Assembly (NCBI GenBank): GCA_020437755.1
Contig: JAGQVX010000023.1
Span: 1-36,814 of the forward strand
Reading direction: 5' to 3'
Length of the DNA: 36,814 nt
From: Flavobacteriales bacterium
GTDB taxonomy: Bacteria; Bacteroidota; Bacteroidia; Flavobacteriales_D; Sanyastnellaceae
Shown here: positions 8,080 to 24,696 of the stretch, piece after piece
Numbering within the stretch: position 1 is the stretch's first letter
Layout: each line of letters opens with the position of its first letter
Made by a program: the position numbers and the translations under genes
Notes under the pieces: model-generated
Seen by the model: only the letters and a program-made list of their open reading frames with translations
What the model was told of the DNA's origin: nothing
Databases searched by the model: none

Positions 8080-8092
8080 AGCGGGTCTCGTA

Positions 8093-9061: not shown

Positions 9062-9071
9062 GGTGCTTTGC

Positions 9072-12000
9072 TTAGCGGTGTAATACGATATAGCCCTGAC
9101 GCACAGCGGTGCGGGCATCGGTTTCTTTAAATACATAGTAATAGGTTCCCTCCGGAAGTGGGTCATCTTTCCACTCACCATCCCAATTGTTCTGATATCC
9201 CGATGCATGGTACACTTCATGACCCCAACGATTGTAGATGTACAACTCGTTATTGGGGAAGTTTTCCAGTCCGGTGATTACCAGGGCATCATTGGCTCCG
9301 TCGCCATTGGGTGTGATTACATCCGGTATTTCGAGGTGTGGCAGAATGAAGATTTTCACCACTGCTGTGTCACAATGTTGGGGACATGCGTCCAAACAAA
9401 TTTCGTACGTCAACTCATCTTCCCCGAAATATCCGTCAACGGCTTCATAATTCACATATTCATTCAGACCAACCGAGGCAATTCCTTCTTGTGGATGTTC
9501 TACCAGCGATACATGAACATTGAGTCCGTCAAACCAGTCGTTGGTCAGGACAAACACGTCTGCATTGGTTCCTTCGCCCAGGGTCAGACTATCGGTCAGC
9601 GCCACGGGATCCTGAGGAGCAATGAGCAGCACATCGTCGGACGAATACACCCCGCAGCCTTCATTGAACAGGGTCCATGTAATTACATAGCTCTCCCCTT
9701 CCTGGGCCCCCAAAACGGCACTTGAAGCCGTTTCCGGACTTACGATTTGCAGTTCTTCGTGGGTCGTTGACCAGTAACCGGTGTACGCTGCATTATTGGA
9801 TGATTGCAGCCACACTTCGCCATCGTCACAGGCAAATACATTGTTTCCTGCAGCGGCCTGAATTGAAGGCACAACATCTACCTGCACGTTCAGTGTAGTT
9901 GAGGGCAATGAGTAGCAAAATCCGTCAAAGACCATCAGCGAATAAGCTCCCTCATCGGTCGGCACTACCGCATCTACAATCAACTCACCTTCGGTTGTTG
10001 TGAAGGCCCCTCCCGGAGTTTCCCATTCAAATTCTTCAGCATCAGAGGAAGTGGTAATGATCAATTCATCACCCGCGCATAAGGGAGCATTGGACGTTAT
10101 CGCCGGACTGGCAGGCAGTGCAAGAACTTCCACGTTCACTGTGCCGTTGGCCGACCAGCAGCCCGAATTTCCCACGCTCAGGGTGTAGGTTCCCGCTTCA
10201 AACGCTGAAATACCCTGAATCACCGGTGGGGAAGGCTGCGCCGAGGTGTATCCATTGGGACCCGACCAGGAATAGGTGTCTGCGTCGGCAGTAGTTGACA
10301 ACACGAGGGTAGAACCTGCACAGATCGCCGTTGACGACGGGATGATCTCCGGCACCTCCGGTTCGGGAATGATGGCTACTTCTATGGCATTAGAAAGATC
10401 GGTGGTACACTCGTTTACTTGCACGTAAACCGAATAATCACCGTCTGCGAACGCCGTGGCATTCGAAATCTCCCACACAGGTACCGTAGTGGAATCTACC
10501 CCATTTGGAGTATTCCAAAAATACACCACATCACCCGTGTAGCTGTTACACGTGAAAACCAGATCATCACCTTCGCAGGTAGCTCCGTTCACCTGAATCT
10601 GCGGATCGACAGGTGCGTTGGTAACGGCCAAAACTGCGCTGGCAGTGTTGGAAACACAACCATTGTCGTCAATGATGTACAACGTATAAACCCCTTCATC
10701 ATCGACTCCCGCATTAGGAATCACGGCCACGGCATTGCTGCTTGAATACCCTGGACCCGACCAGAAGTAATCGAAAGGGCCGAAGCCTCCATTGATTTCA
10801 GGAGAAATGGATACGTCGGTTGTTCCGTTGGTGCATGGTAAGTCAATATCATCTAAAACCACCACCGGATTTCCAAACACTTCAAGCGTGATTTCATTGG
10901 ATACATCCGTGGTACAATCGCCCACTTCAACATAAACACTATACAGTCCGGCATCGCCGTTGTTGAGATCCGCTATGGTGAGGAAGTTGTTGTTGTATCC
11001 GTTGGGAACACCCGGACCCGACCAATGATAAGTAACCCCAAAGCCTTCGTACTCCTGCACTTCAAGAGTGATCGTACTGCCATTGCACGCATCCGATGGA
11101 CCAATCAGCGTAGGAGTCACAGCGTTCTCGCTAATAATTTCAAGGGCACCACATTCTACATCCTCATAACCGTTGAGCACTCCTCCGGGATCGTCTACGT
11201 CGCCGGTTCGAGGAACGCCCATGGGATTCACCGGAACAAGGTCTAGGGAAGGCTCATCATCGTCATTCAAACTCCTCCAGGTAAGAGAAGCGCAGTAGTC
11301 AAGGAACGTACAAGGTGGGTAGGACTCAGAAATCTGAACCGTAAATACCATTTCACATTCCAATCCCAAAGGCAATCGATCCCAACGAGCGGTAACCGAT
11401 CCGAACGATTCAGAAGGCATCACCTCAAAAAGCTCATCGCACTCCACCGAAAACGATTCAGGGACTACCTGCATACCCAGCGGTAGATCGAAGAGGAATT
11501 GGAGGTCCTGCGCTTCGGCGGTACTGGCATCACTATGCTTGATCTTCACCGTGACAAATGTTTCCTCACCAGGATTCAGTTCCTCAGAGAACCAAATCAG
11601 GTCCAGTTCAATGTCGGGTTCAACCAGATCAACGTTGACCGAAGTTGTTTCTGTCACCACTCCCCCGCCGTTGCCCCGCACATAGTCGATACGGCTTTCA
11701 CTACTCAGTGAAGCACCATCGAGAGACTCCTCAACGTTCAATACTACAGCTTTGTAGTACAGGGAAATTTTGTCGACCGAGTTATTTCCTGCAGCGATAT
11801 TGGTAACATTACCCATCACAATCCGAATCTCACGGCGTGTATCCACCGGATCAGCACCATAGTTCAGAATTTGGGCATTGTCCCAAACCTCACTTGATGA
11901 CCCGGCTCCAAACGTTATTCCGTAGGGAACCACCAGTGAATCAATTGATTCCACAGACATGCCCGCGGGCAACAAATCCTTCAGCGTAACGGTTTTCGTA

Positions 12001-14447
12001 ACTCCTTCAATAAATTCATAGTCCACACGATAGGTGACCAATTCTCCTACTACCACCTCGCCATCGGCCCCATAACCGGGCTCAACATTGAGAATGGTCT
12101 TCTCGATCTGTGGCTCTTCCGTGTAAACAATAGCCGCGTCATACACAGGATTGAATCGCTCTACGCTTCCCGGAGCGGCAGCCCAGGTTGCTTCACATTC
12201 ATTGGTGAAGTCGTCAACGCTTTGCACAGTATTTACAACCTGGCAGGTATACTTAACAATGGCCCAGTCTCCGTTGACCGATCCTGCGCGGTCAATCTCA
12301 TTGATCAACATTCCCGAGGTAAATAGATTACCACTGTAAGGCATGTCTGTGCCAAATTCATTTTTCACCGACACCATCTGGCAATTGCTCAGGTATGCCG
12401 CAGGAGGAATATCCGCAACAATGACATCGTAAGCTGGAGCATCCCCAACATTCATCAGGGTTATTTGATAGGTTATGACGTCATGTGCATCCACGTGCTG
12501 CGCATTGGCGTTTACCGGAACTTGAATCGGATTTAGTGTTACGTTGGGGTTGTTGACTGATGCTACTCCTTTCTTCACTTCCAGCGCCGGTGCCCCCACT
12601 TCAATGGCGGCCAAATCGAGATAGGTAGCCACCGCACCTCCTGAGTTGCCGTAGCTAAAACGGGCAAAATTGCTGTGTATCAGCGCATTCGCAAATGGCT
12701 CCGAGGTAATGGGAATACTCACATCCACGGAAATCACACTGGCTTGCGACGGATTGGTGATGTCGAGATCTCCCCATACAATCGCCAAAATATTTTTATC
12801 GGTGTCAACAGAAATGCTTTGAGGGGTCAACCCCACATTATCAAAAGGAGACCAGTCAATGTCGTTACCGAAGGTCAGGTCAAGATCGGAAACATCATGG
12901 ATGGGAAGAGGAAACAAGTCCTGGAAGACAATGTCGCGCGCATCTCCCGAAGGCACTGTCATGGATAGTCGATAGGTAACTATTTCGCCAGGCACATATC
13001 CATTTCCATTGGCCGGATTGGAGACAATTTCTTTGGTAACCTCAGCCGCCGGTACTGTTAACACAGCTTCGGAACGAGAATCGCATCCATTGATTCCATT
13101 GATCAGGTCATACGACAAATGGGTTTCCACTGTCAGAGCGTCGGAAGAGGTTACAGCTGAGCCGTCGCTATATTGTTCTTCAGTGATGATGTCCATCGTA
13201 AATGAACCTTCATCACAGGCCATAAACGGACCGCCATACGCCGCGTTCAAATTGTACGTGAGTTCGTATACACCATCCGTAGGACCTAAAATGGTTGCTG
13301 GTGCAATAGGAACTCCGTTCAGCATTTCATTTCCGCCCGGTGTGAGTCCGTCGGCCAATATCAAAGTCAGTTGGGCAGCATCAATGCCATCCACATATTC
13401 CGAAACCTTATACTTCCACTGGAAAGGCTTTGTGGCACCCGGGATAAAATCTGCTCCTGATTCACCCGCATCGGTGAGGATGTGATATCCGTAGCTATTG
13501 GCATTCGCCAAAATGGTAGTTCCATTTTCACTGGTCAGGTTGGCATTATTCTGATACAAAGCACTATCACACGACATAGGATCCAGTTCATCGATCATGT
13601 GGGCCTTGAATGAAACCAGCACATCAGCCGGATCGGGGGTGCCGTAGGCGGTGTTGCAATGCACTTTAAACGTGCCTCCCGGAACTGAGGTCGAAGGTGC
13701 TTGCGTTACAACACAACCCGGCGTTACTCCGGCATTCAATGTATACTGAAGGGTGGGGGGCAAAAGATCGGTCACTTCCAGGTCATTGACCAGCATGCCT
13801 GTGGCAATGTTGACTTTTAACGAGTACACCATATCCCAGCATGACCCTGTAGCATAGTGGGTATGATCAATTTCTTTGGTGAGCGTGTACAAGGTAGGAA
13901 TCACTGCAGCAGTCATCTGATCATAAACTAATGGCCCATTGGCACCCGTCGGGTCATCACCAAAACGGTATACGGGCTGAGCGATAAGTTCAGCCGGAAC
14001 GCCCACTTCAACTCCGGCACCATCCAGGGTAATACACGCCATTAGTTGAAGCTCAACTCCTCCCTCTACCATGGAGCCTACAGGCAAATTCACTATGACC
14101 AATTGATACCCATCCGGACCAGTAACGATACTCTCGGGCAATTCGCTTGAAATGTTTGGGTCAAGAGCTGAGCCTCCCGCCAGGATTCCGGCTACCTGAA
14201 CATTGGTCAATGTTTCATCATAGAGGCGAACCAGCAAATTTTCCACATTCGTGGCAGGTGGCAACAACAATCTCACGTACGGCTGGTATCCGGGGTTGCC
14301 TTCATTGTAAACGCTGATACTACAGCAAAATTCTTCGTTGATCAACGACTCAGCAGGAGCCGAGAAATCGGAGACTATAGATTGTGAGAATGCCGTCAGG
14401 CTGAGCCCCAGGGCTGCCACAGTCAATCGTAAATTCATTGTTTTCAT
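9072..14447 (-). CDS. Giant T9SS-exported adhesin with type B sorting domain
   Basis: About 1791 residues from the ATG at 14447, selected because MKTMNLRLTVAALGLSLTAFSQ is a signal peptide; a TTG further upstream adds a leader that does not fit. Residues ~170-1090 are tandem DUF11/conserved-repeat beta domains, recognisable by phrases such as VTYRLSMTVP, ITYQITLMNVGDAPAYDV and VTYRVDYEF. Residues ~1100-1600 hold five or six Ig-like modules with repeated YHWSGPG/FWSGPG/YSWSGPNG strands and paired cysteines. A cadherin-like module follows (~1620-1700). The last ~85 residues are a gliding-motility type B sorting domain (PDVITPNGDGAND, LYIYNRWGHEVY, GTYYYVF). The product should be secreted and attached to the surface by T9SS with help from the PorP/SprF protein that follows. 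The ligand is unknown. Confidence 0.93.
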   Translation of the reverse strand: MKTMNLRLTVAALGLSLTAFSQSIVSDFSAPAESLINEEFCCSISVYNEGNPGYQPYVRLLLPPATNVENLLVRLYDETLTNVQVAGILAGGSALDPNISSELPESIVTGPDGYQLVIVNLPVGSMVEGGVELQLMACITLDGAGVEVGVPAELIAQPVYRFGDDPTGANGPLVYDQMTAAVIPTLYTLTKEIDHTHYATGSCWDMVYSLKVNIATGMLVNDLEVTDLLPPTLQYTLNAGVTPGCVVTQAPSTSVPGGTFKVHCNTAYGTPDPADVLVSFKAHMIDELDPMSCDSALYQNNANLTSENGTTILANANSYGYHILTDAGESGADFIPGATKPFQWKYKVSEYVDGIDAAQLTLILADGLTPGGNEMLNGVPIAPATILGPTDGVYELTYNLNAAYGGPFMACDEGSFTMDIITEEQYSDGSAVTSSDALTVETHLSYDLINGINGCDSRSEAVLTVPAAEVTKEIVSNPANGNGYVPGEIVTYRLSMTVPSGDARDIVFQDLFPLPIHDVSDLDLTFGNDIDWSPFDNVGLTPQSISVDTDKNILAIVWGDLDITNPSQASVISVDVSIPITSEPFANALIHSNFARFSYGNSGGAVATYLDLAAIEVGAPALEVKKGVASVNNPNVTLNPIQVPVNANAQHVDAHDVITYQITLMNVGDAPAYDVIVADIPPAAYLSNCQMVSVKNEFGTDMPYSGNLFTSGMLINEIDRAGSVNGDWAIVKYTCQVVNTVQSVDDFTNECEATWAAAPGSVERFNPVYDAAIVYTEEPQIEKTILNVEPGYGADGEVVVGELVTYRVDYEFIEGVTKTVTLKDLLPAGMSVESIDSLVVPYGITFGAGSSSEVWDNAQILNYGADPVDTRREIRIVMGNVTNIAAGNNSVDKISLYYKAVVLNVEESLDGASLSSESRIDYVRGNGGGVVTETTSVNVDLVEPDIELDLIWFSEELNPGEETFVTVKIKHSDASTAEAQDLQFLFDLPLGMQVVPESFSVECDELFEVMPSESFGSVTARWDRLPLGLECEMVFTVQISESYPPCTFLDYCASLTWRSLNDDDEPSLDLVPVNPMGVPRTGDVDDPGGVLNGYEDVECGALEIISENAVTPTLIGPSDACNGSTITLEVQEYEGFGVTYHWSGPGVPNGYNNNFLTIADLNNGDAGLYSVYVEVGDCTTDVSNEITLEVFGNPVVVLDDIDLPCTNGTTDVSISPEINGGFGPFDYFWSGPGYSSSNAVAVIPNAGVDDEGVYTLYIIDDNGCVSNTASAVLAVTNAPVDPQIQVNGATCEGDDLVFTCNSYTGDVVYFWNTPNGVDSTTVPVWEISNATAFADGDYSVYVQVNECTTDLSNAIEVAIIPEPEVPEIIPSSTAICAGSTLVLSTTADADTYSWSGPNGYTSAQPSPPVIQGISAFEAGTYTLSVGNSGCWSANGTVNVEVLALPASPAITSNAPLCAGDELIITTSSDAEEFEWETPGGAFTTTEGELIVDAVVPTDEGAYSLMVFDGFCYSLPSTTLNVQVDVVPSIQAAAGNNVFACDDGEVWLQSSNNAAYTGYWSTTHEELQIVSPETASSAVLGAQEGESYVITWTLFNEGCGVYSSDDVLLIAPQDPVALTDSLTLGEGTNADVFVLTNDWFDGLNVHVSLVEHPQEGIASVGLNEYVNYEAVDGYFGEDELTYEICLDACPQHCDTAVVKIFILPHLEIPDVITPNGDGANDALVITGLENFPNNELYIYNRWGHEVYHASGYQNNWDGEWKDDPLPEGTYYYVFKETDARTAVRQGYIVLHR
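13500..13513 (-). repeat. ATTTGSCGAATGSC word, one mismatch
   Basis: TTTTGGCGAATGCC on the minus strand, inside the adhesin gene (encoding ILANANS). It is the same variant as the copy in mfd at 35148. Confidence 0.5.
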
Positions 14448-14486
14448 TTTTGCCTCGGCACATGCCGCTTGCACATACAAAATTGC

Positions 14487-14517
14487 CAAGTCTAGCGGCT
14501 AAGGCGGGTCAGGCAAA
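14487..14517 (-). promoter_or_regulatory. Promoter of the adhesin-PorP-OmpA operon
   Basis: On the minus strand TTTG (14517-14514) is followed after 19 bases by TAGACTTG (14494-14487), one base off TAnnTTTG. This predicts a transcript start near 14480 and a leader of about 33 bases to the ATG at 14447, which supports that start codon. Confidence 0.5.
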
Positions 14518-14557
14518 CACCTGAGATCGGTGTGAGATAAATCTGACTTATACCCCC

Positions 14558-14571
14558 ATTTGGCGAATGCC
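14558..14571 (+). repeat. ATTTGSCGAATGSC word, exact, upstream of the adhesin promoter
   Basis: ATTTGGCGAATGCC preceded by CC, about 40 bases upstream of the predicted -33 element of the adhesin operon. It is non-coding. Confidence 0.85.
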
Positions 14572-14611
14572 ATAATTCTTGCACACTAACGGCGGCCCAT
14601 TCCAGGCACAT

Positions 14612-14647
14612 GGAAAAAGTAAAGGCCACCTCCAGGGAGACGGCCTT
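14612..14647 (-). terminator. Terminator-like hairpin, possibly of a small RNA
   Basis: On the minus strand GAAGGCC and GGCCTTT form a stem with a nested CTCC/GGAG stem, followed by ACTTTTTCC. It lies upstream of the adhesin promoter and about 160 bases after the tRNA-Gln terminator, so it may end a short transcript from ~14700. That stretch has its own hairpin, TACTTC/GAAGTA (~14656-14676). A very similar hairpin occurs at 22331. Confidence 0.5.
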
Positions 14648-14810
14648 CATCATTCACTTAATTACTTCAGTTCTTTTGAAGTACTACTATAGTCATTGCA
14701 GAGCAAAGATGCATCAACTGGAAAGGCGGGAAGTAGTCGAAGGGCTGACCGTGCTGTAGGATTTAACCCATTGGTTGGTCACAGGACTGAGAAAGAAGCA
14801 TGGCCCAAAA

Positions 14811-14844
14811 CAAAAAACTCCGATAACGCTTAGTCATCGGAGTT
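14811..14844 (-). terminator. Rho-independent terminator of tRNA-Gln
   Basis: On the minus strand AACTCCGAT and ATCGGAGTT form a 9-bp stem with an 11-base loop, followed directly by a T-rich tract (TTTTTTG). It starts 8 bases after the tRNA 3' end. Confidence 0.9.
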
Positions 14845-14851
14845 GAACTTG

Positions 14852-14922
14852 TTGCCCCACAAGGACTCGAACCTTGAATACCTGAACCAAAATCAGATGT
14901 GTTGCCATTACACCATGGGGCA
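14852..14922 (-). tRNA. tRNA-Gln (anticodon TTG)
   Basis: A 71-base cloverleaf on the minus strand: acceptor arms TGCCCCA and TGGGGCA with discriminator A, a D arm containing GTGTAATGGCAAC, anticodon stem TCTGA/TCAGG around the loop TTTTGGT (anticodon TTG, reading CAA), and T arm CAAGG-TTCGAGT-CCTTG. CCA is not encoded. It has its own promoter (14951-14983) and terminator (14811-14844), so it is a single-gene unit. Confidence 0.97.
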
Positions 14923-14950
14923 TCCTAACCGCTGTAATTAAACAGGGGCG

Positions 14951-14983
14951 CAAATTTAAAAAATATCTTTTTACCTGTGCAAA
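14951..14983 (-). promoter_or_regulatory. Promoter of tRNA-Gln
   Basis: On the minus strand TTTG (14983-14980), 21 bases, then TAAATTTG (14958-14951): an exact match to the Bacteroidota primary promoter. It sits back to back with the aldehyde dehydrogenase promoter, with only 7 bases between the two -33 elements. Confidence 0.8.
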
Positions 14984-14990
14984 TTTTCTC

Positions 14991-15024
14991 TTTGAGATTT
15001 AGTGAGGCGTAAGCCGTACCTTTG
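14991..15024 (+). promoter_or_regulatory. Promoter of the aldehyde dehydrogenase gene
   Basis: TTTG (14991-14994), 22 bases, then TACCTTTG (15017-15024). The predicted transcript start, around 15031, would leave only about 14 bases before the GTG at 15045, which favours that codon over the TTG at 15036. Confidence 0.7.
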
Positions 15025-15044
15025 AAGCTCACAAATTGCATGCT

Positions 15045-16487
15045 GTGGAACGAATTCAGAACTATATCAACGGAGAGCTGGTAGCGCCCCAATCGGGAAT
15101 GTATATCGACAATTATGACCCTTCACGCGGCGTGGTGTACAGTGCCATTCCCGATAGTGATGAGGCCGATATCAACGCCGCTGTGGCAGCCGCCAAAAGA
15201 GCATTCCCCGGTTGGTCGAATACTCCTTACACGGAAAGAAGCGCCATCATGCAACGCCTGGCCGACCTGATTCGCGACAATTTGAATCGATTGGCCGCTG
15301 CTGAATCGAAAGACAATGGTAAACCCGTTTCTTTAGCTCGTACTGTAGATATTCCACGTGCTGAGTCCAATATCCGGTTTTATGCTACAGCCATCATGCA
15401 CTTTGAGTCCAAGGCGCACATAATGGAGAATCGGGTAATTAACTACACCCACAAAAAACCATTGGGCGTGGTGGGTTGCATTTCTCCCTGGAACCTGCCT
15501 CTGTATCTTTTTACCTGGAAGATCGCACCTGCGCTTGCCGCGGGTAATTGTGTAGTAGCCAAGCCCAGTGAAATTACGCCAATGACGGCCTATCTCCTAT
15601 CGGAACTGGCCATTGAAGCCGGACTGCCGGCAGGGGTTCTCAATATTGTACATGGATTGGGTGGGCGCGCCGGACAAGCCATTATTTCCCATAAGGATGT
15701 TGTTGCCATTTCTTTTACCGGAGGCACAGCCACGGGGGCACATATCGCCCGTGAGGCAGCACCAAAGTTTAAAAAGCTCTCACTGGAACTGGGTGGAAAG
15801 AATCCCAACATCATCTTCGCCGATTGCGATTTTGATAAGATGCTCTCCACCACCCTGCGTTCTTCATTTGCCAATCAAGGACAAATTTGTCTGTGCGGTT
15901 CACGCATATTTATCCAAGACACCTTATACGATCGCTTCAAGGATGCGTTTGTGGAAAAAGTGGCACGTATGAAAGTAGGGGATCCCTCCGACCCGGCAAC
16001 CAAAATGGGAGCTGTAGTTTCAGAAGACCACATGAATAAAATCCTTTCCTACATAAAACTCGCCCAGGAGGAAGGTGGTAAAGTGCTTACCGGAGGACAC
16101 CGCGTGCATCTCGAAGGTGAACTTGCCGGAGGTTATTACATTGCCCCTACTATAATTGAAGGGCTGGAATACACTTGCCGAACGAATCAGGAAGAGATTT
16201 TTGGTCCGGTGGTTACCCTTACTCCATTCAAAACCGAAGAAGAGGTGCTTACCATGGCCAACAGCACGCCTTATGGTTTGGCCTCAACCGTATGGACTCA
16301 GGATCTTACGCGGGCGCACCGAGTGGCAGCCCATATTGAATCGGGTATTGTGTGGATCAACTGCTGGCTATTGCGCGACTTACGCACTCCTTTCGGAGGA
16401 GTTAAGCAATCGGGTGTGGGAAGAGAAGGAGGTTTTGAGGCTTTGGAATTTTTCACCGAGGCCCAAAATGTGTGCATCGAACTGTAA
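15045..16487 (+). CDS. Aldehyde dehydrogenase, aminomuconate/hydroxymuconate semialdehyde type
   Basis: About 480 residues, full length for the NAD(P)-dependent aldehyde dehydrogenase superfamily. From the GTG start, the general base is Glu248 in SLELGGKNPN and the catalytic thiol is Cys282 in NQGQICLCGSRIF; the Rossmann contact ISFTGGTATG precedes them and EEIFGPVV follows. The combination of GQICLCGSRI and the ISPWNLPLYLFTWKIAPAL segment resembles the 2-hydroxymuconate / 2-aminomuconate semialdehyde dehydrogenase group, which oxidises semialdehydes in catechol or tryptophan (kynurenine) breakdown. No neighbouring pathway genes confirm the substrate. The GTG start gives MERIQNYINGE, the usual N-terminus; a TTG nine bases upstream is the alternative. 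It is transcribed from its own promoter. Confidence 0.9.
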   Translation: MERIQNYINGELVAPQSGMYIDNYDPSRGVVYSAIPDSDEADINAAVAAAKRAFPGWSNTPYTERSAIMQRLADLIRDNLNRLAAAESKDNGKPVSLARTVDIPRAESNIRFYATAIMHFESKAHIMENRVINYTHKKPLGVVGCISPWNLPLYLFTWKIAPALAAGNCVVAKPSEITPMTAYLLSELAIEAGLPAGVLNIVHGLGGRAGQAIISHKDVVAISFTGGTATGAHIAREAAPKFKKLSLELGGKNPNIIFADCDFDKMLSTTLRSSFANQGQICLCGSRIFIQDTLYDRFKDAFVEKVARMKVGDPSDPATKMGAVVSEDHMNKILSYIKLAQEEGGKVLTGGHRVHLEGELAGGYYIAPTIIEGLEYTCRTNQEEIFGPVVTLTPFKTEEEVLTMANSTPYGLASTVWTQDLTRAHRVAAHIESGIVWINCWLLRDLRTPFGGVKQSGVGREGGFEALEFFTEAQNVCIEL

Positions 16488-16490
16488 GGT

Positions 16491-16598
16491 TCAATCGCGA
16501 TTGGCTTTGAAGCCATTGGTAAAAAACCATCCAAACTCCCGGTCAAACCAGTTGGTCATATTCGCCAGTATGTCAAAAAAGTAGTTCATAGGCATCAT
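16491..16598 (-). CDS. Small 35-residue aromatic-rich protein
   Basis: A short frame, convergent with the aldehyde dehydrogenase and only 3 bases from its stop. The product starts MMPMNYFFDILANM and ends WFDREFGWFFTNGFKANRD. It is rich in Phe, Trp and Asn and looks like an amphipathic or membrane-associated helix followed by a Trp-Phe-Phe turn. Random frames seldom read so coherently, and the amino-acid choice is unlike the shadow frames around it. I have a vague recollection of short Bacteroidota proteins with a D-x-x-FGWFFTNG ending but cannot name a family. The start may be any of three Met codons at its 5' end. The function is unknown. Confidence 0.55.
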   Translation of the reverse strand: MMPMNYFFDILANMTNWFDREFGWFFTNGFKANRD

Positions 16599-16951
16599 TT
16601 TCACAGGACACCAGCGCGTCCATTCTTCATACAATCATAACACGTGCCTCACCCCGGAATTGGTATGTGTAAGTCTTCTCAAATGACCCCATTATTGAAT
16701 TCCAGCAGAGGTGCTTCTTAGCATGAGACGCATGAAAGGCTTGAATTATTGGTTAAGCGCAGGTTAAAAAAATCTAAAATGCCTTGAATCCTATCGCAAT
16801 TTGGCTGCTATCCATTTGCCGAATGGCACCTGAAAAAAACCACCTTCAAGGACTTTCAGGTTCACATTGTGGTGTTTAAAAAATAAGGTATCCGACGCTC
16901 AATCTCTCTCCAAAGACCTCAATTTTGGACATTGGATTTAATGCGAATACC
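16599..16951. other. Intergenic region with hairpins and one dispersed word
   Basis: This 353-base stretch separates the small protein from the coiled-coil OmpA lipoprotein. I see no gene. It contains an exact copy of the dispersed word (16814-16827), overlapping the start of an inverted repeat ACCTGAAA ... TTTCAGGT (about 16828-16861) that itself encloses CCTTCAAGG. The promoter of the downstream gene should lie near 16890-16940, but I see no good consensus. Confidence 0.5.
16814..16827 (+). repeat. ATTTGSCGAATGSC word, exact, intergenic
   Basis: ATTTGCCGAATGGC preceded by CC and followed by ACCTGAAA; the flanks match those of the copy at 6660. It is the GCC/GGC form of the stem. Confidence 0.85.
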
Positions 16952-17941
16952 ATGAAGGCAAAGATGCTAGTGCTGGCCATAGCCACAGGAATGATTCTCA
17001 CCGGTTGTGTAACCGGTCGACAATACGAAGAGCTTCAGGCTCTGAAAAATGATTTGGACACCCAAAACGACGAACTCAGCAAGAACAATGAAAGCTTGAC
17101 GACTGAAAACCGCGAACTTTCATCGCAACTCGACGATGCCAATGAACGGCTCACCGCTTTAGAGACAGACACCACATTGATGGGAAACTCGTTGCGCAAG
17201 ATTCAGGATCAATACGACAAGATCAATGAACTCAACGACATTCTCGCCTCGAAAAACTCTAAGTTGTTGCGCGAAGCCGCCGAAGAAAACAGGGCTCTTT
17301 TGAACGAGTTGGAACAAACAAGGCTTGAACTTCAGGCAAAAGAGGATTCCCTGTTGATCCTTGAAAGTGAGATCGACAAGAAAGCCAATGCCCTAAATAA
17401 CGCTAGTTCAGCATTGGAAGACCGTGAAGCACGTGTGCATGAACTGGAGCGACTCATCGCCGCCAAAGACTCCACGGCCAACGCCCTTAAGAATAAGGTT
17501 AGTGCAGCTTTGCTCGGGTTTAAGGACAAGGGACTTACCATTGAACAACGCAACGGTAAAGTTTATGTGAGTCTGGAAGCCAAGCTGCTGTTCCCTTCAG
17601 GAAGCACGGTGATCAATGATGAAGGTAAAAAAGCATTGGTGGATCTGGCCAAGGCTATTGAAGACCAGGCCGACCTGGAAATCGTGGTGGAAGGTCATAC
17701 CGACACAGATGCTATTAAGTCGAGCAGCATTCCACGAAATAACTGGGAACTAAGCGTGCTGCGTTCTACGGCAGTAATTGAGATTATGGTAGCCAACAGT
17801 AAAATTGAGCCTTCGATCCTCGCAGCATCCGGACGAAGTGAATTCCACCCTGTTGATCCCGAGGATAAAGCGAAGAATCGTCGAATTGAGATTATCCTTT
17901 CGCCCAACCTCAACGAACTCTACGAGCTCATCGAGGAATAA
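16952..17941 (+). CDS. Coiled-coil OmpA-family lipoprotein
   Basis: About 329 residues from the ATG at 16952, chosen because it gives a lipoprotein signal (MKAKMLVLAIATGMILTGC) with lipobox LTGC; a TTG nine codons upstream adds an unconvincing leader. Residues ~25-185 are a long heptad-rich coiled coil (LKNDLDTQNDELSKNN, LESEIDKKANALNN). Residues ~205-325 are an OmpA peptidoglycan-binding domain with KLLFPSGSTVI, VVEGHTDTDAI, LSVLRSTAVIEIM, and NRRIEIILSP at the end. The lipid-anchored head plus coiled coil plus OmpA tail suggests a tether between outer membrane and cell wall. It is followed by a long hairpin at 17961 and is apparently transcribed alone. Confidence 0.9.
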   Translation: MKAKMLVLAIATGMILTGCVTGRQYEELQALKNDLDTQNDELSKNNESLTTENRELSSQLDDANERLTALETDTTLMGNSLRKIQDQYDKINELNDILASKNSKLLREAAEENRALLNELEQTRLELQAKEDSLLILESEIDKKANALNNASSALEDREARVHELERLIAAKDSTANALKNKVSAALLGFKDKGLTIEQRNGKVYVSLEAKLLFPSGSTVINDEGKKALVDLAKAIEDQADLEIVVEGHTDTDAIKSSSIPRNNWELSVLRSTAVIEIMVANSKIEPSILAASGRSEFHPVDPEDKAKNRRIEIILSPNLNELYELIEE

Positions 17942-17960
17942 GATAGTACACCATCACAAC

Positions 17961-18003
17961 ACACAAACAGGCCTGTTCTCGTTGAGGATAGGCCTGTTTG
18001 TGT
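17961..18003 (+). terminator. Strong hairpin after the OmpA lipoprotein gene
   Basis: ACACAAACAGGCCT pairs perfectly with AGGCCTGTTTGTGT around a 15-base loop, 19 bases past the stop codon. The lower stem is A/T-rich on the left and T/G-rich on the right, so the TTTG tail is part of the stem. It is probably a terminator or an mRNA 3'-end stabiliser. Confidence 0.7.
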
Positions 18004-18049
18004 GATTAGTGACTTTGCCGGCGCTCTTCCGTCATAATATTTGGAAGAC

Positions 18050-18195
18050 TTGGTATGGTCAGGTAGCCTAGCCTCTTCCAACATTGTTGGCGAATTTCCC
18101 AATAGTTGATAGGGCTTTATAGCAAGGTTTAGGGTGCCAACAATGATTTAGGCGTTTAGCTGCCCTCTGATGATTTCAGAGGGCAGTTTTGTTTG
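18050..18195 (+). ncRNA. Candidate structured small RNA
   Basis: This gap between two transcripts has no credible gene but strong RNA structure. CATTGTTGGC (18082-18091) pairs perfectly over 10 bases with GCCAACAATG (18136-18145), enclosing a 44-base loop with possible inner pairs (CCC/GGG, GCTATAAAGC-like). A textbook terminator follows (18160-18195). A promoter-like TTTG (18014-18017), 17 bases, TAATATTTG (18035-18043; one base longer than consensus) lies just upstream and would start transcription near 18050. Short frames in it hit stops quickly. I do not recognise an Rfam family. It could instead be a structured 3' extension of the upstream mRNA. The 5' end is an estimate. Confidence 0.4.
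18160..18195 (+). terminator. Rho-independent terminator
   Basis: CTGCCCTCTGA and TCAGAGGGCAG form a perfect 11-bp stem with a 5-base loop, followed by TTTTGTTTG. No protein gene ends nearby on this strand (the closest stop is at 17941, already followed by its own hairpin), which points to a non-coding transcript upstream. Confidence 0.9.
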
Positions 18196-18338
18196 TGGGA
18201 GTATGCTCTTCACCGCCTGGCATTACTGCTCGAACCATGATTCCGATTGCAAGGAAATCAAACAAATGGATACCTCATTGGAGCTGCAAAAGACGCATTG
18301 CTCATGGTTCAATCGCAGTCCAGTACACCGGCATGAAA

Positions 18339-18374
18339 TGAAAAAGGGCCGACTTCCGGATGGAAGTCAGCCCG
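18339..18374 (-). terminator. Terminator of the cysteine-repeat lipoprotein gene
   Basis: On the minus strand GGGC-T-GACTTCC and GGAAGTC-G-GCCC form a stem with one internal mismatch, followed by TTTTTCATTT. It lies 25 bases past the stop codon at 18399. Confidence 0.88.
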
Positions 18375-18398
18375 ATATTATTGAGGTTGAGTATCTAC

Positions 18399-19370
18399 TT
18401 ATGGAATGTTGAACAAGAGGAATCCATTGCTGATATTGACAATAACTCCGTCAACATCGGAAGTGGTTCCAGCAAAGCTCATTACAATCACACCACCCGG
18501 ACCCGGTACATAGTTCAATACCGTGAACGTCATATTTGCAGTGGTAAGAGCTGTAGAATATGAAAAACCAACTGCATCGGTATAGGTGCAGTTTGCAGGG
18601 AGCGATGTAGGTGAAAGCGTTACAATTGCTCCGGTTAACCATCCAAATCCCGGTTCTTCGAGCACCATCGAAATTTGTTCACTGGCAAACGTTGTACCTG
18701 TAATGGTAAACGTGGATCCATCGAAATTAAAGGTCTTGTCGGCCTGCGCAATTTTCAATCCGCCGGCATTCCAATAGAGTGTATCCTGACAAGCCGGGCA
18801 CGTAGGGCCACCGCAGTCAATCCAGAACTCACCACCGTTCATGCTACCGCTCAGACAGTTACTGTCATCAGGACATGGACCGCAGGTTCCTCCACAATCA
18901 ATTCCAATTTCCTGTCCGTTCATAATGAGGTCATCACACGTCGGACATGGATCACAGTAATCACCACCGCAGTCGGCCAGTGTCACATCTGGTGCAATAC
19001 AAGTTGGGTCGGCACCATCTTCATCACCATTTGGCAAGCCATCGTCGCACAAGTCAGCACAATCGCCACAAAACGTACCCCCACAGTCAACACCCACTTC
19101 ATCGCCATCCTGGCAACCATTTGCGCATTGGTCACATTCGCCACACTCGCCGCCACAGTCTACCCAGGTTTCACCATTCTCGGGGTTCCAGAGTCCGTTC
19201 AGACAAGGGTCACACGCCGGACAAGGTCCGCCGCAATCGATTTCCTCTTCACCATTGTTTTGCTCTCCATCATAACAGTTTGGAGGAATAAGGTTGTCGT
19301 CATTCAAGCAACTGGTTAGCATGAATGAGAACATCAACAATGTGAAAACTCCACTAAAAAACTTAGTCAT
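18399..19370 (-). CDS. Lipoprotein with six cysteine-rich DCGG repeats
   Basis: About 323 residues from the ATG at 19370, chosen because MTKFFSGVFTLLMFSFMLTSC is a lipoprotein signal with lipobox LTSC; the upstream extension has no signal. Residues ~30-200 carry six variants of a unit of about 25 residues, N-G-x-E-x-x-(I/V)DCGG-x-C-x-x-C (EEEIDCGGPCPAC, ETWVDCGGECGEC, EVGVDCGGTFCGDC, a longer fourth copy ending LADCGGDYCDPC, EIGIDCGGTCGPC, EFWIDCGGPTCPAC). The acidic Asp/Asn content and paired cysteines suggest small disulphide-stabilised, possibly calcium-binding, modules. Residues ~215-323 form a beta-rich domain with no recognised family. It is probably exposed on the cell surface. It is divergent from recJ with 129 bases between. 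Confidence 0.85.
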   Translation of the reverse strand: MTKFFSGVFTLLMFSFMLTSCLNDDNLIPPNCYDGEQNNGEEEIDCGGPCPACDPCLNGLWNPENGETWVDCGGECGECDQCANGCQDGDEVGVDCGGTFCGDCADLCDDGLPNGDEDGADPTCIAPDVTLADCGGDYCDPCPTCDDLIMNGQEIGIDCGGTCGPCPDDSNCLSGSMNGGEFWIDCGGPTCPACQDTLYWNAGGLKIAQADKTFNFDGSTFTITGTTFASEQISMVLEEPGFGWLTGAIVTLSPTSLPANCTYTDAVGFSYSTALTTANMTFTVLNYVPGPGGVIVMSFAGTTSDVDGVIVNISNGFLLFNIP

Positions 19371-19499
19371 GGTATTCAAAATTTTTATTTCCGCCGAAGC
19401 GCAAAGAACGAAGATACACATATAAAGACTACCCAAGAAAAATTTTGGTTGCAAACTGAAGTGCATATTTTGTGCAATTATTAGAATTTCGAAGCCCAA

Positions 19500-21263
19500 A
19501 TGACACCATCTCTGAAAAAATGGAGGCTTGCCCCATCACTCGACACTACTCAGGTACAAGCCCTGGCAAGTCAGCTTAATGTTGATCCTTTTGTCGCTGA
19601 ACTGCTGATTCGGCGCGGAATTACGACGCTTGACGACGCCCGGGTGTTCTTTCGTCCGACGTTGCAGGATCTCCATCCTCCTCTAGTCATGGCCGACATG
19701 AAGAAGGCCGTGAAGCGCGTGGTGCAAGCGATTCACAATCGCGAAAAAGTTCTGGTTTACGGTGATTATGACGTAGACGGGACAACCTCGGTAGCCATGA
19801 TGTACTCGTTTTTGAAGCAGTTGGATGTCCCCTGCGAGCACTATATTCCCCACCGCTATCACGAGGGCTACGGGGTTTCGGCTCAGGGGGTGGCATTCGC
19901 CAAATCCGAGGGCTGCAGTCTCATGATCACCCTGGATTGTGGAGTTAAGGCTGTAGACCGCGTAAAGGAGGCCAATGAACTGGGAATCGACGTAATCATT
20001 TGCGACCATCACAAGCCCGGAACGAACCTCCCCCCGGCGCTGGCCGTGCTCGACCCCATGCGTGATGACTGCCCTTACCCCTTCAAAGGACTGAGCGGCT
20101 GTGGAGTGGGATTCAAACTTATCCAGGCTATTGTCGAAGACCAGGGATTTCCAGATGAAATGCTCTGGAGCTATCTCGACCTACTCACTATAAGCATCGG
20201 CGCCGATATCGTGCCGATAATCGGAGAGAATCGCACACTTTGCCGTTTTGGATTGGATCTCATCAATAAACATCCAAGGCCCGGTGTGCGAGCCATGCTC
20301 AATGCAGCAGGGTTCAACAAAGAAAGCATGACTATCAGCGACGTCGTGTTCATCCTTGCTCCTCGCATCAATGCGGCAGGAAGAATGGACCGGGCTGCTC
20401 ATGCCCTGGAACTGCTATTGGCACAGAATGATGAAGAAGCCCTGCCTTTAAGCCAAACCATCGAAGAGTTCAACCGAAACCGAAAAGAGCTCGATAAAAG
20501 CATCACCGAAAGTGCGTTGGAGCAAATCGCCGAAGATCCCTGGTATGAAACGGCGTGGAGTACCGTGGTGTTTGGTGCCGACTGGCACAAGGGAGTCATC
20601 GGTATCGTGGCTTCCCGGATTATGGATCAACACTACAAACCCACTATAGTATTCACGGAAAAAGAGGGAATCTTGTCGGGCAGTGCACGAAGTATCGAAG
20701 GATTGGACATATACGAAGCTCTGGGATCGTGTAGGGATCTCCTGATACAGTTTGGTGGACATGCCATGGCTGCAGGAATGACCATGAAGTTGGAGCAATT
20801 TAAGGCGTTCCGCCAAAAGTTTGACGAAGTGGTGAAATCAATGATCTCGCAAGACGACCTGATTCCGGTTGTGGAAATTGAGCATGAATTACCCTTTGAT
20901 CAGATATCTACCGCCAACTATAAAATCCTAAAACAATTTGCTCCGCACGGACCTGCAAACATGAAACCCGCGTTTCTCGCAACTCAATGTCGGGATACTT
21001 CCTATTCCCGACTCGTGGGTGGAGACTTCAGTCATTTGAAATTGCATGTGGTTCAAGAAAACGGTCGTCGTGCCATGGAGGGGATTGGGTTTAATATGTC
21101 GCACGGCTTGTCCATGCTAAAGTCTACCGAAGGTGCCGATTTAGTGTACACTTTGGAGGAGAATAGCTGGAACGGAAAGACCGAATTGCAAATTCAGGTG
21201 CGCGATATCCATTTGGCGAATGCCAACATACTTACTTCTGCAACGAGCCCGGAAATGTCCTGA
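19500..21263 (+). CDS. recJ: Single-stranded-DNA-specific exonuclease RecJ
   Basis: A 587-residue, full-length RecJ, a 5'-3' single-strand exonuclease of the DHH phosphoesterase family that acts in recombinational repair and mismatch repair. The metal-binding motifs are in order: VYGDYDVDGTTS (~87-98), ITLDCG, CDHHKPG, then INAAGRMDRA, and the DHHA1 region with WHKGVIGIVASRI, SGSARSIEGLDI and FGGHAMAAGMTM. A C-terminal OB-like domain follows. The ATG at 19500 is the only sensible start. Its last 32 bases overlap the convergent channel gene. Two exact copies of the dispersed word fall inside it (19892 and 21211). Confidence 0.97.
   Translation: MTPSLKKWRLAPSLDTTQVQALASQLNVDPFVAELLIRRGITTLDDARVFFRPTLQDLHPPLVMADMKKAVKRVVQAIHNREKVLVYGDYDVDGTTSVAMMYSFLKQLDVPCEHYIPHRYHEGYGVSAQGVAFAKSEGCSLMITLDCGVKAVDRVKEANELGIDVIICDHHKPGTNLPPALAVLDPMRDDCPYPFKGLSGCGVGFKLIQAIVEDQGFPDEMLWSYLDLLTISIGADIVPIIGENRTLCRFGLDLINKHPRPGVRAMLNAAGFNKESMTISDVVFILAPRINAAGRMDRAAHALELLLAQNDEEALPLSQTIEEFNRNRKELDKSITESALEQIAEDPWYETAWSTVVFGADWHKGVIGIVASRIMDQHYKPTIVFTEKEGILSGSARSIEGLDIYEALGSCRDLLIQFGGHAMAAGMTMKLEQFKAFRQKFDEVVKSMISQDDLIPVVEIEHELPFDQISTANYKILKQFAPHGPANMKPAFLATQCRDTSYSRLVGGDFSHLKLHVVQENGRRAMEGIGFNMSHGLSMLKSTEGADLVYTLEENSWNGKTELQIQVRDIHLANANILTSATSPEMS
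19892..19905 (-). repeat. ATTTGSCGAATGSC word, exact, inside recJ
   Basis: The plus strand reads GGCATTCGCCAAAT, encoding AFAK in frame. RecJ sequence around it is otherwise ordinary. Confidence 0.8.
21211..21224 (+). repeat. ATTTGSCGAATGSC word, exact, near the recJ 3' end
   Basis: ATTTGGCGAATGCC preceded by CC, encoding HLANAN in RecJ. It lies just beyond the point where the convergent channel gene ends (21232), so it sits in the 3' region of both transcripts. Confidence 0.82.
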
Positions 21264-22080
21264 CGTGCAAATCCCGCTGTGGGAAAGGGATACTGATGCC
21301 TTTTTCGCGAAATGCCCTGTCGATTTCCAAACGTAAATCGCTGAGGTTTACCTCAATTTCAAACGAACGCTCGGCCCAGAAGTATAGTCTGAACATCAGC
21401 GCGGAGTCACCAAAATCCACAAAATCAACCCGCGGATGGCGATCGTCAACCAGTTCGGTGAAGCGCTGAGCACAATCGAGCAACACTTCCTTCACGAGGG
21501 TGGTATCCGTACCATAAGCGACGCCCACATTAATTTGGAAACGGGTCACCTTGTTCACCATGCTCCAGTTGTTGAGCTTTTGTCCGGTAATCAGCGAATT
21601 GGGAATAATGATGTAATTGCCGTCCCGTTTGATCACCTTGGTGGTGCGGATGTCTATTTGCATCACCTTGGCCGGCATGCCGTCTACTTCGATAACATCA
21701 CCAACTTTCACCGTGCCTTCGAACAAGATGACAAAGCCCGACACAAAATCACTGAAAACATTCTGCAATCCCAGCCCGATACCCACCAACAATGCAGCTG
21801 ATCCGACCAGGAGGCCGGAAATATTGACGCCCAGCGTTTGCAGCGACAAAACGATTCCGACCGTATACAAGAAATAGCGTACCAACTTCATGATGGTGTA
21901 CTTCTTTGCCTTGTCGATGCGATCGGAACGTTTTACAGCACGAGCCAACACAATTCCGATGACGGTAATGATCACCTGAATGACCAGGAAAATCGCTGCA
22001 ATTTTGATTACGTCGAAAACAGTGAGCGCGTACTTTTCGTACCGCAACAACTCATACTGCAGAAACTCGTGCATAGTCAT
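21232..22080 (-). CDS. MscS-family small-conductance mechanosensitive channel
   Basis: A 282-residue MscS-type channel, an inner-membrane valve that releases solutes on osmotic downshock. Three transmembrane segments are visible: ~22-45 (VIKIAAIFLVIQVIITVIGIV), ~63-82 and the pore-lining TM3 at ~88-115 with the Gly/Ala pattern LVGSAALLVGIGLGLQNVFSDFVSG. The beta domain follows (VKVGDVIEVDG, IDIRTTKVIKRDGNYIIIPN, NWSM) and then the alpha-beta C-terminal cage ending in FPQRDLHVRTFPG. The start ATG at 22080 precedes a short amphipathic leader. The gene is convergent with recJ, overlapping it by 32 bases. Confidence 0.94.
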   Translation of the reverse strand: MTMHEFLQYELLRYEKYALTVFDVIKIAAIFLVIQVIITVIGIVLARAVKRSDRIDKAKKYTIMKLVRYFLYTVGIVLSLQTLGVNISGLLVGSAALLVGIGLGLQNVFSDFVSGFVILFEGTVKVGDVIEVDGMPAKVMQIDIRTTKVIKRDGNYIIIPNSLITGQKLNNWSMVNKVTRFQINVGVAYGTDTTLVKEVLLDCAQRFTELVDDRHPRVDFVDFGDSALMFRLYFWAERSFEIEVNLSDLRLEIDRAFREKGISIPFPQRDLHVRTFPGSLQK

Positions 22081-22330
22081 GGCCCGAATTTAGGAAGATA
22101 ATTGTTCAGTATCCCTGATATACGACAGGAATATCAGGCCTTTGGACCTCCGCATGGTCACCACATTAAAAAAGGACGTAAAATTTAAAGTGCTCATTTT
22201 TAAGCTGTTGTGATTTTTTTCAAAATCCTTCGAACAGAAACGAAACCAAACAGCCTAAAATGCGTTAAACCCTCTTGTAAGTTCTCATGTAGAGATAATA
22301 GATAGTTTAATTGTTTTCATTTATTTACCA

Positions 22331-22360
22331 TTGAAGGCCGTCCAACGGGATGGCCTTTAA
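22331..22360 (+). terminator. Terminator-like hairpin upstream of the thioredoxin-fold gene
   Basis: TTGAAGGCC and GGCCTTTAA form the outer stem and TCC-AACG-GGA an inner one, followed by TCTTTTC. The outer stem and the GAAGGCCGTC start are shared with the hairpin at 14612 (minus strand). Each lies upstream of a same-strand gene for an exported protein. Confidence 0.5.
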
Positions 22361-22437
22361 TCTTTTCTACCCCTCTCATCTCTGTACCTTTCCCATTCAT
22401 TTAGATTTTTTTAGCGTCAACCTAAGGTTTCATAGGC

Positions 22438-22445
22438 TACATTTG
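22438..22445 (+). promoter_or_regulatory. -7 promoter element of the thioredoxin-fold gene
   Basis: TACATTTG matches TAnnTTTG exactly and lies 21 bases before the ATG at 22467. No clear TTG is present at the expected -33 distance. Confidence 0.5.
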
Positions 22446-22466
22446 GGTGAAACAAACCACTTAGTC

Positions 22467-23108
22467 ATGAAAAACAAAATACTCCTACTTGCTGCTTTAG
22501 GTCTGGTAATTTTAGGTTCTTCTTTCCTAATAGGCGGACCGGAAGAAAGCATTGCTCTGGGCACGAAGGCTCCTATGAGCGACCACAAGATGATGGGAAT
22601 TGACGACAAAGGCCACACCCTCGCATCCCTTGCCGGAAAGAATGGACTGCTCGTCATTTTCTCATGCAACACCTGTCCATTTGTAATTGGCAACGGCGAA
22701 AAAACCGAAGGTTGGGAAGGTCGGTACGCTGAATTGTATAAATCATGCACCGCCAAAGAAACCGGAATGGTACTCATCAATTCCAACGAAGCCAAGCGCG
22801 ATGCCGGAGATTCGATGGATGACATGAAGCACCACGCCAAGGAGCAGGGGTACGCTCAAATACCCTACGTAATCGACACCAATCACCAATTGGCAGATGC
22901 CTTTGGCGCCAAAACCACTCCTCATGTATTCCTGTTCAATGCCAACATGGAATTGATTTATAAGGGTGCCATTGACGACAATGTGGATCGTGCTTCAGAA
23001 GTGGAGCAGCGCTGGCTCATCAATGCCTTGCGTTCCAATATGGCCGGTAAAACCATTGATCCGGCAGAAACCCGGGCTACGGGCTGCAGCATCAAACGCG
23101 TTAAGTAA
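22467..23108 (+). CDS. Exported thioredoxin-fold (AhpC/TSA-like) redox protein
   Basis: About 213 residues from the ATG at 22467, where a hydrophobic signal or anchor begins (MKNKILLLAALGLVILGSSF). The body is a thioredoxin fold: GTKAPMSDHKMMGIDDKG, then VIFSCNTCPFVIGNGE with a Cys-x-x-Cys pair, NSNEAKRDAGDSMDDM, a cis-Pro segment KTTPHVFLFNAN, and IYKGAIDDN. The C-terminus has a further conserved-looking cysteine (ATGCSIKR). This resembles the peroxiredoxin-like / thioredoxin family proteins common in Bacteroidota, which probably act in the periplasm as disulphide reductases or peroxidases. The precise substrate is unknown. Its stop is adjacent to that of the convergent TM2 gene. Confidence 0.88.
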   Translation: MKNKILLLAALGLVILGSSFLIGGPEESIALGTKAPMSDHKMMGIDDKGHTLASLAGKNGLLVIFSCNTCPFVIGNGEKTEGWEGRYAELYKSCTAKETGMVLINSNEAKRDAGDSMDDMKHHAKEQGYAQIPYVIDTNHQLADAFGAKTTPHVFLFNANMELIYKGAIDDNVDRASEVEQRWLINALRSNMAGKTIDPAETRATGCSIKRVK

Positions 23109-23516
23109 TCAGGCTTTAGCTGAATCAGGATCCCCGGATTTTTCGGGGATCCACATAAATACGTGGGTGTTGTTCTTGTAAGGCTCCAAATCCTTGGTGA
23201 ACAAGATGTGCATCAAATCCACAAACGGAAGCACCCCAAATCCTCCGCCCAACGTGGCTACGTAGATAATGGGTACCTTCACATCGGTTCCGAGATAGAG
23301 TCGATGCATTCCAAAAAAGCCCAATCCAACGGTGAGCATGGCCGCCACCCATCTTGGATTTTCTCTGAAGGTAGAATCGGAAGTAAAGTCAATACCATTC
23401 TCCAGGTCCATCATCACATACTGCTCGAGCTCAATAATTACAGGCTCAACAGGCTGACCCGCCCGAAGATTGAGCGAGAACAATGTAAGGAGTAAGATGA
23501 CCAGGTATCGACACAC
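23109..23516 (-). CDS. TM2-domain membrane protein
   Basis: A 135-residue protein with an N-terminal signal (YLVILLLTLFSLNLRAGQ) and a TM2 domain at ~58-105: two hydrophobic segments with the diagnostic GFFGMHRLYLG turn and a Gly-rich second helix (VATLGGGFGVLPFVD). TM2 proteins have no agreed function in bacteria. The start is a GTG at 23516; a stop codon a few codons upstream rules out a longer form. The last codons contain a perfect hairpin, GGATCCCCG/CGGGGATCC (23128-23152), and the stop is adjacent to that of the convergent thioredoxin-fold gene. It follows queA by 27 bases on the same strand and may be co-transcribed. Confidence 0.85.
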   Translation of the reverse strand: MCRYLVILLLTLFSLNLRAGQPVEPVIIELEQYVMMDLENGIDFTSDSTFRENPRWVAAMLTVGLGFFGMHRLYLGTDVKVPIIYVATLGGGFGVLPFVDLMHILFTKDLEPYKNNTHVFMWIPEKSGDPDSAKA

Positions 23517-23543
23517 AGCAGGTCGAAATTACGAAATCGGCGA

Positions 23544-24593
23544 TTAAATAATCAGCATGGCGTCGCCATACGCGTAGAACCGATATTTTTCCTTGATGGC
23601 TTCTTTGTATGCCTTCATCACATGATCGTATCCACCAAATGCCGCGGTCATCATCAACAAGATAGACCCCGGAGTGTGGAAGTTGGTGATCATGCTATCA
23701 GCAATATGGAAGTCGTATGGAGGAAAAATGAACTTATTGGTCCAGCCGTCAAATGGCTTCAAACGATCATACGTACTTACGCTTGATTCCAATCCACGCA
23801 TTACCGTTGTACCCACTGCACACACGCGATGCTTACTTTCTTTGGCGGTATTGACGCGATCGGCACAAGCCTCAGGAATGTGAACCTCTTCGGAATCAAC
23901 CTTATGCTTGGTGAGGTCTTCCACTTCAACAGGGCGGAAGGTACCCAATCCAACGTGCAACGTCAATTCAGAAAAATCAATACCCTTCAATTCCATCCGC
24001 TTAATCAGCTGTCGGGAAAAGTGAGTGCCCGCGGTAGGAACTGCCACCGCACCTTCATGCTTCGCAAAGATGGTTTGATAACGTTCTGCATCACCTTCTT
24101 CAACCGGACGATTGATGTATTTCGGAAGAGGAGTTTCGCCCAACTTGTAGATGGTCTCCTTGAACTCATCGTGGGTTCCGTCGAACAGGAAACGCAAGGT
24201 TCTTCCTCGTGAAGTGGTGTTGTCGATCACCTCAGCCACCAGTTCGTCATTCTCTCCGAAGTACAACTTATTGCCAATTCGAATCTTACGTGCAGGATCC
24301 ACCAACACGTCCCACAACAAACTCTCGGCATTCAGTTCACGAAGGAGGAATACCTCGATAGTTGCTCCGGTTTTCTCTTTGTTTCCATACATTCTTGCCG
24401 GAAACACCTGCGTGTTGTTCACAACCATGACGTCACCGTCATCGAAGTAATCCAACACATCTTTGAACATGCGGTGTTCAATCTTGCCGGTGTCCTTGTG
24501 CAAAACAAGCAGACGCGATTCATCGCGGTGTTCTGCGGGATGTTGAGCGATAAGATTGGCCGGAAGGTTAAATTTAAATTGAGAAAGTTTCAT
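23544..24593 (-). CDS. queA: tRNA preQ1(34) S-adenosylmethionine ribosyltransferase-isomerase QueA
   Basis: A 349-residue, full-length QueA. It transfers and isomerises the ribosyl group of S-adenosylmethionine onto preQ1 at tRNA position 34 to give epoxyqueuosine, the penultimate step of queuosine synthesis. Seen: [20 protein letters not shown] at the start, [56 protein letters not shown] and the C-terminal [17 protein letters not shown]. The ATG at 24593 follows a good promoter (24627-24658). truB lies upstream on the same strand with 103 bases between. Confidence 0.98.
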
Positions 24594-24626
24594 GGAGCAA
24601 CCGTTTAAGCGCTTCTAAAGCGGGGG

Positions 24627-24658
24627 CAAAGGTAAGCAAAACACGATGGAAATGCCAA
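24627..24658 (-). promoter_or_regulatory. Promoter of queA
   Basis: On the minus strand TTG (24658-24656), 21 bases, then TACCTTTG (24634-24627), an exact Bacteroidota -7 element. The predicted leader is roughly 25-30 bases. It gives queA a transcript independent of truB. Confidence 0.72.
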
Positions 24659-24696
24659 TGCTATTCCATGCCGTGTAAAACATACCCCAACAGGGC

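Follow-up and report, generated by a model that had tools for sequence, protein, structure and literature searches.

The locus and its predicted RNA

The window analysed here is contig C155 (JAGQVX010000023.1), a stretch of 36,814 nucleotides from an uncultured Flavobacteriales genome (G000; 303 contigs, 3.78 Mb). Along it, tRNA-Gln (minus strand) comes first and is followed by an aldehyde dehydrogenase gene and an OmpA-domain lipoprotein gene (ompA), both on the plus strand. Behind the end of ompA at 17941 lies a gap with a candidate small RNA (sRNA), bounded on its far side by a minus-strand cysteine-rich lipoprotein-like gene (18399 to about 19370; named by eye and without a Pfam family), after which comes the plus-strand RecJ gene. 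Our comparison genome, G001, was the sole other member of the same genus compared; positions 5882–25371 of the window are collinear with L096 (G001), in a block of about 19 kb that includes the candidate element.

Directly behind ompA, a first hairpin (17960–18004, plus strand) forms the upstream border of the element. The preliminary description had given ompA a terminator hairpin of its own at this place; the 21-nt arms (17960–17980 and 17984–18004) are indeed present and 90% complementary, but the T tail in the window genome is weak and U-poor, and the hairpin is absent from the list produced by the terminator scan.

The candidate sRNA gene occupies 18043–18195 on the plus strand and would yield an RNA of about 145–153 nt, in the order hairpin P1, hairpin P2, whose large loop is conserved, and intrinsic terminator. 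In P1 (18043–18079), GGAAGA (18043–18048) is paired with UCUUCC (18074–18079) in the predicted fold, and the hairpin contains the invariant UUGGUAUGG (18050–18058). The 5′ arm of P2 (18082–18091) pairs with its 3′ arm (18136–18145) in a perfect 10-bp stem with 44 nt between the arms, exactly as the long-range pairing had been described; perfect stems of at least 10 bp with loops of 20–80 nt arose in 3 of 1000 dinucleotide shuffles of 18010–18195. Within the loop, a 34-nt segment (18102–18135) is a candidate seed or binding site. The putative 3′ end is formed by the intrinsic terminator T2 (18158–18195), whose reported 11-bp stem and T-run are likewise present: the stem (18160–18170/18176–18186) is perfect, extends to 13 pairs over 18158–18188 if G-T is counted, and is followed by TTGTTTGTGG, whereas 11-bp stems with a 3–8 nt loop occurred in 0 of 1000 shuffles of 18010–18195.

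Folding stability reached a z-score of −3.98 for 18048–18195, most of it accounted for by the terminator. When the terminator was left out, the z-score was −1.60 in G000 and −0.20 in G001, so the G001 RNA without it is no more stable than its shuffles. The predicted fold of the window RNA also depends on the exact start: when the start was moved from 18043 to 18045, P2 dropped out of the predicted minimum-energy structure, and the first bases of P1 may be lost if the RNA begins at the predicted start site. Farther along the gap, 18200–18340 contains the inverted pairs 18232–18240/18302–18310 and 18239–18249/18310–18320, which are unconserved in G001 and lie in a stretch that folds about as its shuffles do (z-score −0.64).

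A homologue in the same genus conserves the P2 pairing

A homologous element lies at G001:C28:12180–12297, in the corresponding gap, again flanked by ompA and the lipoprotein gene. It was found by reading the DNA behind ompA orthologues; a blastn search with the element against 100 relatives (E up to 1) had missed it. Of the gap, the element alone can be aligned between the two genomes (0 of 500 shuffles aligned as well), and for the other parts of the gap between 23 and 431 of 500 shuffles were as good, depending on the part and the scoring.

The alignment of the two elements was made without structural information. The sequence of P1 is identical in G001 and, being invariant, shows no covariation and carries no information on its pairing. 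P2 behaves differently: only 4 of 9 letters are unchanged in each arm, yet 8 of the 9 pairs are kept, four of them by two-sided changes and a fifth through a switch to U-G. G001 has lost the remaining one of the nine, and it also lacks the tenth pair seen in the window (18091/18136). A lack of conserved pairing in orthologous gaps had been named beforehand as the refuting outcome; in the one orthologous gap that carries the element, pairing is conserved in the same register. Over the whole structure, 97.5% of the positions are paired in register, compared with 36–58% when the partners were slid by 1–3 columns. When the same number of substitutions was placed at random, at least eight P2 pairs survived in about 0.4% of simulated trials, and RNAalifold recovered P2 unaided from the same alignment. 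A control that shuffled within pairs did as well as the real alignment in 40 of 500 cases, a comparison that has little power with two rows, and the covariation evidence as a whole comes from two sequences only, G000 and G001.

The loop segment was more conserved than the stem that closes it, with 26 of its 34 letters invariant (76% identity). A conserved loop on a changing stem is what would be expected where the stem merely presents a functional loop, and this comparison indicates that selection is acting on both the P2 pairing and the loop sequence. The fast-evolving stem and the fixed loop thereby point to the site of function.

These observations bear on the possibility that the stretch is a remnant of intergenic DNA in which an inverted repeat arose by accident and the second terminator is a mere back-up. 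Inverted repeats of the P2 class are somewhat abundant in the window (4, compared with counts of 0, 0, 3, 0 and 1 for five shuffled windows), and a promoter-like pair upstream, discussed below, is at chance level, both of which would suit an accident. The conservation in G001 and the compensatory pairs, set in a gap whose remainder is unalignable, largely refute this reading, and we regard it as highly improbable.

Strand, coding potential and promoter

The plus strand is favoured because the U-G wobble in P2 would turn into A-C on the opposite strand, and because the T run comes after the T2 hairpin when the plus strand is read; P2 does not form when the minus strand of G001 is folded. Of the plus-strand open reading frames of at least 50 aa, just two, both mechanical, touch 18005–18170, and they do so with their ends alone (17805–18005 and 18170–18412), in agreement with the earlier statement that the second terminator serves no protein gene. 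With no same-strand gene directly downstream, a riboswitch or leader is unlikely. The two elements differ by indels of 2, 3, 1 and 1 nt, so no single reading frame can run the full length of both; because these indels break the frame, coding is unlikely as well. A very short protein gene could still be imagined at the 5′ end, where a TTG at 18050, and at 12189 in G001, opens one frame over P1 (LVWSG.. and LVWFG..) that is the same over about 12 codons in both genomes. Against it, the start codon is TTG, the two frames have no stop position in common (19 and 15 aa), and neither covers the P2 loop, which is the most conserved part of the element and carries 1-nt indels. We consider such a gene exceedingly improbable.

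A possible weak promoter (18007–18038, plus strand) consists of TAGTGAC and CRTAAW elements with the same spacing in G001. The promoter-like pair of the preliminary description, GTGACT-N18-CATAAT at 18009–18038, is present and matches 9 of 12 consensus letters, but it is no better than chance, with 8 such sites in 6 kb and 6.9 expected. TAGTGAC is common to G000 and G001 at equal distance from the element, and the upstream stretch alone did not align above chance (254 of 500 shuffles were as good). The strict Bacteroidota promoter TTG-N17-23-TAnnTTTG was found upstream of the element in neither genome. A textbook example of this promoter stands before tRNA-Gln in both genomes (window 14982 and L096 9083, both on the minus strand) and can serve as a local yardstick when promoters are called.

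Relation to ompA

Each genome has a terminator hairpin downstream of the element, and the sequences of the two hairpins are unrelated. Directly after ompA and upstream of the element, G001 also carries a strong terminator whose T run is long and which is unrelated to the first hairpin of the window. An ompA orthologue was matched in 96 of 100 relatives; at the ompA loci of 28 other genomes drawn from these 96, the covariance model described below, run with its filters off, gave a best score of 11.6 bits, which was rejected, and by eye the gaps behind ompA at 13 of the 28 loci held no matching element. The gap behind ompA in G042 (L042) contains a GC-rich stretch with CGCCCGGTGGCGGGC twice within about 600 bases, seen by eye, which looks like a repeat family.

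The main competitor of an independent sRNA is a structured 3′ part of the ompA transcript, arising by read-through of the first hairpin and ending at T2, in which P1 and P2 would be a 3′ UTR element or a 3′-UTR-derived sRNA. The weak T tail of the first hairpin in G000, which the terminator scan passed over, would permit such read-through, the lack of a canonical sigma-A promoter before the element fits it, and UTR-derived sRNAs are reported for Bacteroides thetaiotaomicron (PMC7366714). It is harder to reconcile with G001, where the strong terminator separates ompA from the element, and with the 28 further loci, none of which has the element downstream of ompA although this gene is so widely kept among the relatives. 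On balance we hold the ompA-linked origin to be unlikely, though it deserves more weight than the other alternatives.

Distribution among relatives

A covariance model built from the two sequences was run on 114 family genomes (E up to 1) and on 399 order genomes, and both times it detected the element in G000 and G001 only; the family and order runs used stricter filters and their genome sets overlap. Within these 114 and 399 genomes, the element was not found in those of other genera by a two-sequence model, which can miss distant relatives. An exact pattern scan also matched the G001 element in JADFAK010000084.1 (MAG Flavobacteriales bacterium isolate C15_102_105_12; L087).

Several other candidates were rejected. 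A second covariance match in G000 (C284, 18.6 bits) lies inside a coding frame that by eye is HtrA-like. Blastn matches to the element in 55 of 100 relatives are nearly all short; the 11 inspected look like chance and are mostly coding, and several recur at query positions 72–123 without a common structure. A loop pattern with two mismatches allowed, which is unable to match the window itself owing to a 1-nt spacing difference, matched 7 of 100 relatives along with many controls, and only the place in G001 is real. Exact pattern scans returned 12 stretches in genome contigs and 5 in viral contigs, one of them the G001 element; the other 16 scored at most 16.1 bits, and the 13 inspected look coding or unrelated. 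An 18-nt perfect match on C222 is no antisense target, since it reads in the same direction as a symporter-like gene (named by eye).

Rfam, 6S RNA and Hfq

A link to 6S or Flavo-1 was not confirmed by the Rfam check: no family of Rfam 15, which includes both, reached its cut-off on the element, and the weak matches sit mostly on terminator hairpins. The novelty of the element as a family rests on this absence from Rfam 15. Neither 6S-Flavo (RF01685) nor 6S (RF00013) matched anywhere in the window's genome, in which SRP RNA was found.

6S RNA has a long closing helix with a central bubble. Such a helix was predicted in neither the G000 nor the G001 fold, and this weighs against the idea that the element is a divergent 6S RNA missed by the Rfam models. 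The idea draws on the missing 6S match in a genome whose SRP RNA was detected, and on the expression of 6S RNA in Flavobacterium psychrophilum (PMC9723704), which leads one to expect 6S here too. The silence of RF01685 says nothing either way, as that model matched 0 of 100 relatives with the controls also silent, making its absence uninformative in this order. A housekeeping RNA should, moreover, not be restricted to one genus. The element would share with 6S-Flavo the nature of a stand-alone Bacteroidota RNA but differs from it in predicted fold and in the lack of a model match, and we judge a 6S identity very unlikely.

Hfq was not detected in the window's genome; it was found in 5 of 14 control genomes. 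To our knowledge, little is known about the sRNAs of Bacteroidota that lack Hfq.

Interpretation and comparison with known sRNAs

Taken together, we think it probable that 18043–18195 (+) encodes a small structured non-coding RNA of the stated length with its own terminator. The pattern of an independent small RNA, proposed earlier, is supported by the conserved pairing in G001, the compensatory changes and the downstream terminator; the two-species comparison places the putative gene at the same genomic location with a predicted terminator in each genome. The element thus appears to be a real, selected plus-strand RNA, most likely an intergenic sRNA that forms a new family of an ordinary kind. 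It provides a specific candidate that is open to experimental test in an uncultured lineage and has compensatory changes in its support.

Transcription would start from a promoter of the RNA's own, located after the ompA hairpin and before P1. The RNA would then act in trans, its conserved 34-nt P2-loop segment pairing with mRNAs or binding a protein; by analogy with known sRNAs, mRNA pairing through the loop is probably the mode. The UUGGUAUGG segment of P1 might also contact an mRNA or protein partner, and the action would proceed without Hfq, as reported for Bacteroides sRNAs.

sRNAs of this kind are common in the phylum, as two published surveys show. In B. thetaiotaomicron, 124 intergenic sRNA candidates were described, 49 of them with terminators (PMC7366714), and in F. 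psychrophilum 85 new RNAs with a median length of 176 bp, Rfp18 among them (PMC9723704). The B. thetaiotaomicron sRNA GibS (RF04182) is reported to act via a conserved unpaired seed in a host without obvious Hfq (PMC7366714). It resembles our element in its intergenic position, its own terminator, its genus-level conservation and its conserved unpaired segment, and differs in that its seed lies at an unstructured 5′ end, whereas the conserved stretch here lies in a hairpin loop. The GibS model itself gave a single row, at 16.1 bits against a cut-off of 115 bits, located on the opposite strand of G001 and beyond the limits of the element. Rfp18 and the other Rfp RNAs are likewise short, non-coding, structured and genus-conserved, and the pairing region of Rfp18 is in a stem-loop (PMC9723704); Rfp18 was compared with the element by description only.

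A bolder reading takes the element as the first member of a new class of structured RNAs restricted to one uncultured Flavobacteriales genus. In it, a fast-changing but always paired stem would present a fixed 34-nt loop segment to one specific partner, be it a protein, RNA polymerase (with the element in the place of 6S) or a single essential mRNA, as opposed to the ordinary mRNA-pairing sRNA that we prefer. We see this as quite unlikely.

Other conserved elements in the window

Two further elements of the window are conserved in the congener. An unlisted small protein gene of 34 aa, MPMNYFFDILANMTNWFDREFGWFFTNGFKANRD, lies at 16491–16595 on the minus strand, convergent with the aldehyde dehydrogenase gene; it has no Pfam or NCBIfam match and is kept in G001 (10594–10698, minus strand). 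A second conserved non-coding block (14600–14711, minus strand) is flanked by tRNA-Gln on one side and by a very long minus-strand gene on the other. It has no Rfam match, and among 60 relatives a strong match was seen in only the two congeners. Its part 14642–14711 aligns with G001:C28:8735–8807 at 82% identity over 73 columns (0 of 500 shuffles; E 2.2e-12), and in both genomes the block contains a small hairpin and is followed by a terminator-like hairpin, making it a candidate for another small RNA.
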